From: Herbidospora galbida
GTDB taxonomy: Bacteria; Actinomycetota; Actinomycetes; Streptosporangiales; Streptosporangiaceae
Direction of reading: 5' to 3'
Length of the DNA stretch: 64,000 nucleotides
NCBI RefSeq assembly: GCF_005233835.1
Contig: NZ_SZQA01000013.1
Span: forward strand, 1-64,000
Numbering within the stretch: position 1 is the first letter of the stretch; each line of letters starts with the position of its first letter. Shown piece after piece: positions 57,413-63,538 of this stretch. The notes under the pieces are model-generated. The model did not search any database, was not told where the DNA came from, and saw only the letters and a program-made list of their open reading frames with translations. The position numbers and the translations under genes are program-made.

Positions 57413-58450
57413 GTGCGTACACCCAACATGTTCGTCAGGAGTCTCGGCGTATACGTGCCGGAAAGCGTGAGCGTCGAGCACGCGGTACGCGAAGGCTGGT
57501 ATCCGGCCGAGGATGCCGAGAAGTTCCGGCAGATCGGCGCGGCGGTGGCCGGCGACATGCCCGCGCCCGAGATGGCGCGGCTCGCGGTCCTGGACGCCTA
57601 CGAGCGCTACGGCCAGTCGTCCCCGAAGGATCTCGACCTGCTGCTCTACCCGTCGGTGTGGCACCAGGGCCCGAACGGCTGGCAGCCCCAGCACTACCTG
57701 CAGAAGCACCTCCTCGGCGGCCCCGTGCCGGCGTTCGAGATCCGCAGCGGCTGCGTCGGGATGATCAGCTCGCTCGAACTCGCGGCCAGCTACCTGATGG
57801 CCCTGCCGGAACGCGAGACGGCGATGGTCGTCTCCTCCGACAACCACGGCACCCCGCTGGTGGACCGCTGGCGGATGACCCCCGGCGCGCTGATCGGCGA
57901 CGCCGCCGCCGCGCTGCTCCTCGGCAAGGAGCGAGGCATGGCCCAGCTCCTGTCGGTGAACGCGACGGTGATCCCCGAAGCCGACGCCGTCAACGACGGC
58001 GCCTACCCGCTCTTCCCCCCGGACGCCACCGTGGGCGTCGGGCTGAGCTTCGGCGACCGGCACGAGGAGTTCCGCCAGCGGCTGCTCAAGAAGCAGGGGA
58101 CCGGCATCCACCTGACCATCCAGAAGACGATGATGCAGCAGGTCGAGCAGACCCTCGACGAGGCCGGCATCGGACTGTCCGACATCACGAAGGTGGCGCT
58201 GCCGCACGGCCGCCGCGAGGACCTCGACGGCCAGATGTCCTGGCTCGGCATCGACGAGGACCAGACGACCTGGGACTACGGCAGGCGCGTCGGCCACTGC
58301 GGCGCGGTCGACCAGTTCATCGCCTTCGAGCACCTGCTCGCGACCGGCGGTCTCGTGCCCGGCGACCATCTGCTCATGGTCGGCTTCGGCTCCGGGACGT
58401 CGTGCGCCGCCGCGGTGTTCAAGGTCATCGAGGAAGGACCGCGCGCATGA
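57413..58450 (+). CDS. KASIII-like acyltransferase/ketosynthase, copy 1
   Basis: A 345-aa thiolase-fold protein of the 3-oxoacyl-ACP synthase III type. The nucleophile is Cys114 (EIRSGCVGM) and the second residue is His265 (ALPHGRRED). The FabH Asn motif GNTS is replaced by GHCGAVDQ (His295, Asp300). Related KASIII-like enzymes of polyketide pathways (CerJ, ChlB3 and ChlB6 types) transfer acyl groups to oxygen or to carriers and do not condense malonyl-ACP. It is the first gene of a four-gene cassette and overlaps the ACP start. The GTG follows AGGGGAC. Confidence 0.88.
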   Translation: MRTPNMFVRSLGVYVPESVSVEHAVREGWYPAEDAEKFRQIGAAVAGDMPAPEMARLAVLDAYERYGQSSPKDLDLLLYPSVWHQGPNGWQPQHYLQKHLLGGPVPAFEIRSGCVGMISSLELAASYLMALPERETAMVVSSDNHGTPLVDRWRMTPGALIGDAAAALLLGKERGMAQLLSVNATVIPEADAVNDGAYPLFPPDATVGVGLSFGDRHEEFRQRLLKKQGTGIHLTIQKTMMQQVEQTLDEAGIGLSDITKVALPHGRREDLDGQMSWLGIDEDQTTWDYGRRVGHCGAVDQFIAFEHLLATGGLVPGDHLLMVGFGSGTSCAAAVFKVIEEGPRA

Positions 58451-58698
58451 CCGAGCTCACCCGCAAACTGGTCGACTTCATCCAGGAGAACCTCGTCCAG
58501 GAGGGCGACGACATCGTCGTCGACGAGACCACCCCGCTGCTCACGTCGGGCCTGCTCGACTCCCTGCGCACGGCCCGGCTGCTGAACTTCCTGCGCAAGG
58601 ACGTCGGCGTCCGGATCCCCGCCGCCAAGCTCGACTCCGAGAACTTCCAGGACGTCGTGACCATCGCGGCGATGGTCAGAGAGCTCGAAACCGTCTGA
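58447..58698 (+). CDS. Discrete acyl carrier protein
   Basis: An 83-aa ACP with four helices. The phosphopantetheine site is the Ser in SGLLDSLRTARLL (near residue 40). It is coupled on both sides: its ATG overlaps the stop of KASIII copy 1, and its stop overlaps the start of copy 2. A separate ACP beside an iterative type I PKS that has its own ACP suggests a shuttle that receives the finished acyl group. Confidence 0.9.
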   Translation: MTELTRKLVDFIQENLVQEGDDIVVDETTPLLTSGLLDSLRTARLLNFLRKDVGVRIPAAKLDSENFQDVVTIAAMVRELETV

Positions 58699-62700: not shown

Positions 62701-63538
62701 CCCCGACGAGCCCGAACCGGCCTGGCTGGTGCACGTCACCGCGAACGTGGCCGCGCCGGGCCAGGTGAAGCCCGACGTCCTCCCGGACGCCGACGGGCTG
62801 ACCCCGATGGAGCCGGGCTACGTCCACCAGCGCCTGGCGACGGTCGGCGTCCCGTCGACGGGCTTCGACTGGAGCATCGAGACGCTGCTCGGCGGCGACG
62901 GCGCGCTCCGCGCCACGGTCCGCACCGACGGCGTGGACAGCTGGGCCCCGGCGCTCGACGCGGTGATGTCGGTGGCGCCCTGCGTGTTCCCGGGGGATCC
63001 GGTGCTGCGCATGGTCGTCCACATCGACGAGATGGTGCTGACCGGCACACCCCCCACGACGGTGATCATCGACGCGGCGGTGGACCCGTCGGCCGAGGAC
63101 ACCGCGCGGGCGGTCATCGCCGACGTCGACGGCAGGGTGGTCGGCCACCTGACGGGCCTGCGCTACCCGGTGATCGACGCGCCCCTCCAGGCCGAGGAGG
63201 ACCTCGGCGGCCCGGCGGAGTCGTTCGCCGGGGTGGCGCCCGAGGACCTGCGCGGACGCGTCCTGCCGGAGATCCGGGCCGAGATCGCGACCGTGATGCG
63301 ACTGGGGCCGGAGGACCTGTCGATCCGGCGCCCGCTGGTCGAGCAGGGGCTCGACTCGGTGATGACCATCATGGTCCGCCGGCGGCTGGAGAAGCGCTTC
63401 GGCTGCCGCCTCCCCACGACGCTGCTGTGGCAGCAGCCGACCATCTCCGCCATCGCGGACCGGTTGGTGGAGCTCCTGCTGGCGGCCGTACCGGAGCCGG
63501 AGAAGGCCCCCGAGATCGCGCCCGCCTTCGGAGGCTGA
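59762..63538 (+). CDS. Iterative type I polyketide synthase, KS-AT-DH-ACP
   Basis: A 1258-aa single-module PKS. KS (1-430): Cys174 in DTACSAS, His309 in EAHGTGT, His349 in NIGHLEGAAG. AT (525-825): Ser615 in GHSVG, with VAFHSPQM near 717 predicting malonyl-CoA. DH-type domain (880-1140): HALNGVEIVP with His917, and Asp1066 in WAPALDAV. ACP (1165-1240): Ser1199 in GLDSV. There is no KR or thioesterase. This is the layout of bacterial orsellinic-acid-type synthases (AviM, CalO5); methylsalicylate synthases have an extra KR. An unreduced aromatic acid such as orsellinate is the simplest product guess. Release is probably by the KASIII-like partners. The ATG at 59762 follows AAGGGA. Confidence 0.9.
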   Translation: MVEPVAVIGIGCRLPGDVHSPDEFWDLLCAGRNTTRPLPADRWRRDENRSPENAAALRDAVRHGSFLDDIEGFDAEFFGLSPREAELMDPQQRILMETAWEALEHAGLPPHGLRGTDTGVFVGVCTGDYGARLLEDLPQIEAWTGIGAATCAVANRISYSLDLRGPSMAIDTACSASLVALHLAAQSLRLGENDVALAGGVNLVVTPGQTLTLGTAGALAPDGRSKSFDASADGYGRGEGVGVVVLKRLSDARRDGDRILALVIGSAVNQDGHTQGIMAPCGEAQEHVMHRACKQAGVAPSTVDYVEAHGTGTRLGDPLEAGALSSVYGTGRPPGDPCLIGSVKSNIGHLEGAAGITGVIKAVLALHRGSIPPNVLTSLNPAIPWETSGLRVVTEQSAWPTRDHPRRAGVSSFGYGGTVAHIVLEQAPPAPETPEAETTGERLFPLSAASEKALRQYAGALAGHLDKGAGLASAGHTLALRRTHLPRRAVVLGADRNDLTAGLRRLADDVPAESVITGDVLPDLGPGPVWVFSGQGCQWRGMGRELLGVPEFASLVDEVDPIFVEEIGFSPRQVLTDGDLDTIDRVQTMIFVMQLGLARMWTAHGVTPTAVIGHSVGELAAAVTAGAMSVADGARLICRRSALLRQAEGKGAMVMVDLSFEEAADRLADRTDLVAAISSAPGSTVLSGDVDAVEEVLDDWPAEGIVTRRVASDVAFHSPQMTPLAVELAAGVGDLSFGPPRIPMYTTALADPRSTPVLDGAYWAANLRDPVRLAAATTAAAQDGYRVFLEISPHPVVAHSVTETLSENGFEDVFVGTSLRRNQPELPTFLASVGTAHCHGVDVDWTRLQPSGGLADLPPYAWQHRRHWRESYTETDNRGHDVDSYTLLGAGTSIAGSRTRVWRTSVQDANRPYPGSHALNGVEIVPAAVLVNTFLHAAEDEDVTLTDVEMMHPLMTAERRQIQVVHEPPAVRLAARTPAAPDEPEPAWLVHVTANVAAPGQVKPDVLPDADGLTPMEPGYVHQRLATVGVPSTGFDWSIETLLGGDGALRATVRTDGVDSWAPALDAVMSVAPCVFPGDPVLRMVVHIDEMVLTGTPPTTVIIDAAVDPSAEDTARAVIADVDGRVVGHLTGLRYPVIDAPLQAEEDLGGPAESFAGVAPEDLRGRVLPEIRAEIATVMRLGPEDLSIRRPLVEQGLDSVMTIMVRRRLEKRFGCRLPTTLLWQQPTISAIADRLVELLLAAVPEPEKAPEIAPAFGG

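Follow-up and report, generated by a model that had tools for sequence, protein, structure and literature searches.

A recurrent six-gene unit joins a putative orsellinate synthase and two KASIII-like proteins to a predicted secreted esterase in Herbidospora and related genera

Results

The window analyzed here comprises bases 1–64,000 of the 182,335-base contig NZ_SZQA01000013.1, part of an 8.3 Mb genome whose closest named relatives are Herbidospora species. Toward its end, genes for a small secreted protein, an esterase, a KASIII-like protein (KASIII-A), a discrete acyl carrier protein (ACP), a second KASIII-like protein (KASIII-B), and an iterative type I polyketide synthase (PKS) lie together, and each of 25 related loci examined repeats all six in this arrangement. 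The esterase and the 73-residue small protein belong to the unit, which is one of six genes. That these genes form a self-contained, horizontally moving aryl-ester unit equipped with its own secreted esterase seems to us about an even proposition, in which the product, the acceptor, and the esterase substrate are all inferred. No such six-gene unit was described in the open-licence literature searched.

The named related loci were drawn from a pattern scan, taking the best 80 of 212 matches. The 25 that carry the unit (L057–L078, L080, L095, and L047) are distributed among Nonomuraea (12), Herbidospora (6), Acrocarpospora (3), Microbispora (1), Streptosporangium (1), and Sphaerisporangium (1), with L047 in addition. 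Genes were called by a crude rule based on GC content by codon position, with tblastn used to fill gaps; of the 25 loci, 22 yielded the small protein and 14 the ACP to the caller alone, and tblastn recovered the remainder. When neighboring genes within about 10 kb were clustered, no further family exceeded 7 of the 25 loci. The family that reached this count is a cytochrome P450 (five Herbidospora, two Nonomuraea); others comprise a family in six loci limited to Herbidospora and, in five, an open reading frame (ORF) antisense to the ACP. Three families (9–11), each present in three loci, do cross genera. The P450 at contig positions 67694–69019 was considered as a unit member and set aside: five of the six other Herbidospora stretches have it close to the unit, but at L064 and L072 the nearby P450s are 26–31% identical and lie upstream, and no match was obtained in the L047 stretch.

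A search of 200 genomes of the family gave a concordant distribution. KASIII-A was matched at E ≤ 1e-60 in 40 genomes, in 16 of which identity was 83–100%. At the same threshold, with seven candidates scored per genome, the esterase was matched in 18: those same 16 (65–100% identity) and two others, whose weaker matches (56% and 52%) occur in genomes without the cassette. Orthologous esterases at E ≤ 1e-200 occur in the same 16 genomes, those with KASIII-A at or above 83%. The small protein, queried from 15 residues before its conserved start, was matched in 37 genomes at E ≤ 1e-5, and beside the cassette at E ≤ 1e-20 in the same 16, the match in genome G197 containing two stops. By position, all 16 have the small protein first, then the esterase, KASIII-A, and KASIII-B. 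A preliminary description of this DNA had presented the last four genes as a cassette standing alone and merely flanked by the esterase; the constant company of esterase and small protein does not bear this out as worded.

The four downstream genes are themselves as that description gave them, with KASIII-A at 57413–58450, the ACP at 58447–58698, KASIII-B at 58698–59741, and the PKS at 59732–63538, all on the forward strand and overlapping successively by 4, 1, and 10 bases. Both KASIII proteins match the Pfam families ACP_syn_III and ACP_syn_III_C, and the ACP (83 residues, with a DSL motif) matches PP-binding (E 1.4e-4). The PKS is called from a GTG codon, a start made uncertain by the many relatives whose alignments begin only at residue 4–13.

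Pfam matches within the PKS are KS, AT, PKS_DH_N, and PP-binding, with none to the KR, ER, or TE families. The resulting KS-AT-PT-ACP architecture, lacking KR, SAT, and TE, is the layout of AviM-type orsellinate synthases. The DH-like (PT) domain, at about 62408–63170, has a single solved-structure match at E ≤ 1, that to 7VWK (E 2.7e-77), the structure of the AviM PT domain, for which a catalytic dyad H949/D1104 is given (PMC9135731). The two domains share 143 of 254 residues (56%) and the same His and Asp motifs at a spacing of 155. The PT match supports the reading of the PKS as AviM-like and KR-less, in agreement with the preliminary description. The AviM source also reports orsellinic acid production by Escherichia coli carrying AviM (PMC9135731). 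The Nonomuraea gerenzanensis genome paper assigns an iterative PKS cluster to 6-methylsalicylic acid (6-MSA), 3,6-dimethylsalicylic acid, or orsellinate (PMC5431353).

A KS placement outside the aromatic iterative clade, named there as a refuting result, was not seen within the set sampled. The tree retained 89 sequences after stretches with internal stops were dropped, and CalO5, ChlB1, NcsB, and full-length AviM are not among them. It places the PKS in a group of 71, separated from 18 other KS sequences by a branch of 0.67 with a printed support of 0.588, a label that rooting may have displaced; the group also includes a PKS adjoining an 83% ChlB3 homolog. Within it, the 26 PKSs of the unit form a clade (0.993) whose sister is a set of 13 from a related gene arrangement, the A-B-PKS type (joint support 1.0). 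A contig end truncates the L061 PKS, and those of L071 and L077 align in two pieces. One Herbidospora genome carries, downstream of the unit (L041:2186–2425, reverse strand), an ACP-like fragment that shares 60% identity with the ACP domain of the PKS and is perhaps a duplication remnant.

The two KASIII proteins fall into distinct types. The Cys113-His296-Asp301 triad described for ChlB3 (PMC9573744) is conserved in all 42 A-type and all 38 B-type sequences, and identity to ChlB3 is 62% for KASIII-B and 51% for KASIII-A. A tree of 126 sequences, again retained after removal of stretches with internal stops, recovers the A-type (n = 42, 0.998) and B-type (n = 38, 1.0) proteins each as a clade. 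They differ at the position of DpsC His266, where every A-type protein has His265, for a Cys114-His265-His295-Asp300 site, and every B-type protein has Asn, like ChlB3; the 46 other KASIII sequences have Asn in 38, His in 2, and another residue in 6. The use of Asn rather than His here as a mark of the ChlB3 type is our own criterion and not a published one. The preliminary description had likened the whole set to that of chlorothricin; the presence of an ACP and two KASIII-like proteins accords with this, but the two KASIII proteins are unlike one another.

Coumarin formation by a FabH-like enzyme has precedent. KASIII-A might likewise condense the aryl thioester with a malonyl group on the free ACP, giving a 4-hydroxycoumarin-type lactone that needs no other acceptor. 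His265 matches DpsC His266, and when the FabH encoded by the genome itself is aligned, the His of its PH motif falls one residue away; B-type proteins and ChlB3 have Asn at the His265 position; according to the ChlB3 paper, the two His residues of DpsC stabilize the enolization phase (PMC9573744). However, KASIII-A retains the transferase triad, including Asp300. Moreover, one of the only two other His-bearing proteins, L115_0, belongs to a chlorothricin-like cluster that has a halogenase-like gene (identified by eye) and encodes a ChlB3 homolog of 83% identity; because it could be the ChlB6 counterpart of that cluster, and so may be a grafting enzyme, His265 may mark a grafting as well as a condensing step. 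We regard a coumarin-type product as quite improbable.

Several further observations concern KASIII proteins. PDB entry 9z38 is 90–91% identical to those of loci L123 and L130. Contig C106 of genome G000 encodes, at about 159–166 kb (L053 and L054), two additional KASIII-like proteins 32–35% identical to KASIII-A, in an apparent cluster found in six of seven Herbidospora genomes. Loci L085, L088, L090, and L094 contain an A-type protein with no B-type partner seen within the stretch examined, and L085 and L090 have no PKS match there either.

The esterase (55806–57122, forward strand; 438 residues) has a signal-like start by eye, a BD-FAE catalytic domain, and a C-terminal CBM2 domain. Its catalytic domain is nearest to the acetyl xylan esterase 6xyc and the GH43-CE protein 6mly (E 1e-37 to 4e-38). 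Ser147, Asp251, and His283 are invariant in all 19 aligned esterases; in CBM2, Trp344 is conserved in 18, Trp381 in 19, and His399 in 17. At position 399, cellulose-binding CBM2 proteins have the third of three aromatic contact residues. The esterase is perhaps held on cellulose or chitin through this domain.

The small secreted protein (55135–55356, reverse strand) is 73 residues long when read from a conserved MRK start, the ORF having been called from 55401. It has a signal-like N-terminus by eye and a mature part with two invariant Cys residues and a predicted beta-alpha-beta-beta fold, the core of which is confidently modeled (pLDDT 92–96). Pfam and NCBIfam returned no match, and none of 78 PDB matches to the model reached E ≤ 0.001. 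One of these matches, the peptidoglycan-binding domain of CwlC, has a probability of 0.82 at an E value of 1.7, and no fold was assigned.

In seven comparisons, ratios of nonsynonymous to synonymous change (dN/dS) were 0.14–0.26 for KASIII-A, 0.13–0.20 for KASIII-B, and 0.17–0.31 for the PKS, and 0.33–0.76 for the ACP, 0.34–0.86 for the esterase, and 0.31–1.22 for the small protein, with dS understated by the simple count method in GC-rich DNA. This constraint bears on the idea that the unit releases free orsellinic acid, its KASIII proteins and ACP serving as a thioesterase-like path. Though ChlB3 is reported to hydrolyze 6MSA-SNAC (PMC9573744) and the AviM-expressing E. coli makes the acid (PMC9135731), free release needs neither two constrained KASIII proteins nor an ACP, and it leaves the link to the esterase without explanation. 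We consider it very improbable.

Gene trees point to movement of the unit. In a tree of joined KASIII-A, KASIII-B, KS-AT, and esterase sequences (made without L047), the unit of Acrocarpospora phusangensis stands beside those of Herbidospora (100/99) and away from those of two other Acrocarpospora; a single Acrocarpospora clade is rejected (p-AU, approximately unbiased test, 5.8e-74), the tested grouping having been chosen after identities were seen. ObgE, the sole housekeeping protein compared, sets the three Acrocarpospora genomes at the same distance from Herbidospora (identities of 84, 84, and 85%), whereas their KASIII-A identities are 92, 85, and 84%; genomes were paired by contig coordinates. 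Transfer of the whole unit, or of its greater part, from one genus to another is probable.

In bases 1–103,000 of the contig, the KS of the unit was the only one found, as were its two KASIII proteins, and no sugar or scaffold cluster was apparent in the crude gene list, as the preliminary description had noted for the DNA in view. The idea that these genes border a modular PKS cluster finds no support, nothing of the kind lying within 57 kb to the left or 39 kb to the right. An arrangement like that of chlorothricin could still operate if an unlinked cluster supplied a dedicated acceptor for the aryl group, with the esterase and small protein present for another reason, such as a shared ecological trigger. 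In chlorothricin, ChlB3 is reported to load the ACP and ChlB6 then to graft onto the scaffold (PMC9573744); most relatives of the KASIII proteins sit in larger clusters, and the genome holds other PKS-type DH domains (eight matches to PS-DH). Yet the six genes stay together in six genera as their flanks differ, and an acceptor cluster would have to be co-inherited unlinked. This makes an unlinked dedicated acceptor, in our estimation, unlikely.

Non-coding DNA 5′ of the esterase is conserved across genera and contains a promoter-like site, TTGACC-18-TATCGT (55686–55715, forward strand), the only one found in a scan of 55000–64000 (0.4 expected in shuffles). Directly 3′ of the PKS stop is a 12-pair GC hairpin (63544–63572, forward strand; z −3.78, with 0 of 200 shuffles equally stable). 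The preliminary description had the cassette closed by a terminator; the hairpin is terminator-like, but it has no T run and is for that reason omitted by the terminator scan. No known RNA family was found in 55000–58000 at E ≤ 1. A cellobiose (CebR) operator was rejected, the six matches to the consensus (at most three mismatches) being no excess over a shuffle mean of 7.66. As for the flanks given in that description, the esterase is confirmed as such, yet as a unit member, and the protein at 63614, downstream of the PKS, has only a sub-threshold Zn_peptidase match. Taken together, the observation made there is confirmed and its interpretation partly supported.

Just upstream of the unit, two overlapping genes (window 51458–54705) each encode two ABC_tran domains and resemble ABC-F genes; the pair adjoins the unit in several other Herbidospora too. 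A tRNA at 45848–45920 is followed by about 4.5 kb of lower-GC, gene-poor DNA (to 50472), which may be an inserted stretch and contains a gene for a 499-residue pentapeptide-repeat protein (47007–48506).

Discussion

By analogy with AviM, the KR-less PKS would build an orsellinate thioester on its own ACP, and KASIII-B, as proposed from ChlB3, would transfer the orsellinoyl group to the free ACP. KASIII-A may then place the aryl group on an acceptor for which no special gene is required, either a widespread metabolite with a hydroxyl group or another orsellinoyl group, the latter giving a depside. Because the unit keeps the same genes amid changing neighborhoods and none of them is a scaffold gene, the expected acceptor is a ubiquitous molecule, a further orsellinate, or a malonyl unit. 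Its constant association with a secreted esterase points to cleavage or remodeling of the product outside: the ester would leave the cell, the CBM2 esterase would act on it there, and the small secreted protein may be a helper.

Several results weigh against an aryl-ester unit of this kind. The BD-FAE domain is closest to acetyl-xylan and related esterases, so the substrate of the esterase may be a plant polymer rather than the product; His at CBM2 position 399 makes cellulose binding uncertain. The esterase and the transfer genes have separate upstream regions and may not be coexpressed, and no exporter gene is part of the six. The small-protein dN/dS rises to 1.22 in one comparison. Finally, the esterase tree alone lacks the grouping of A. 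phusangensis with Herbidospora, though it does not reject it (p 0.327).

A more specific form of the aryl-ester proposal is that the six genes suffice for an orsellinate ester, that the polymer-bound esterase opens this ester outside and frees the aromatic acid at the plant polymer, and that KASIII-A, with its Cys-His-His-Asp site, is a new functional type. We advance it tentatively and think it rather unlikely. If the aryl-ester proposal as a whole is true, the unit would be a minimal, movable aryl-transfer system, would reveal the role of KASIII-like enzymes that have no scaffold to serve, and may connect polyketide chemistry to a plant-polymer lifestyle.

Each enzyme of the unit has a known relative; the papers searched contained no account of the combination of a putative orsellinate synthase, a KASIII pair, and a constant secreted CBM2 esterase in several genera with no scaffold genes. 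The PKS resembles AviM, the orsellinic acid synthase of avilamycin, in its KS-AT-PT-ACP order, its lack of KR and TE, and its PT His-Asp spacing; unlike AviM, it has no orthosomycin or sugar genes nearby, and its product is a prediction from sequence. The chlorothricin proteins ChlB1, ChlB2, ChlB3, and ChlB6 likewise comprise an iterative PKS, a discrete ACP, and two KASIII-like proteins. However, the chlorothricin PKS is a KR-containing 6-MSA synthase, whereas that of the unit lacks KR; scaffold, halogenase, and sugar genes are missing from the unit (in the 103 kb of contig, and with no shared neighbor family in the 25 loci); KASIII-A is distant from ChlB3 and carries His265; and the esterase and small secreted protein are additions. 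The 12 A-B-PKS loci (L079, L081–L084, L086, L087, L089, L091–L093, and L113), from Nonomuraea, Actinoallomurus, and Actinomadura alba, resemble the unit in their KASIII-A and KASIII-B sister clades and KR-less PKS, but have no match to the ACP, esterase, or small protein of the unit, and have a P450, an aromatic-ring hydroxylase, and often a PhyH oxygenase nearby. The BD-FAE esterases 6xyc and 6mly, finally, share the catalytic domain of the unit's esterase, which differs from them in its own CBM2 and in its tie to a PKS unit.
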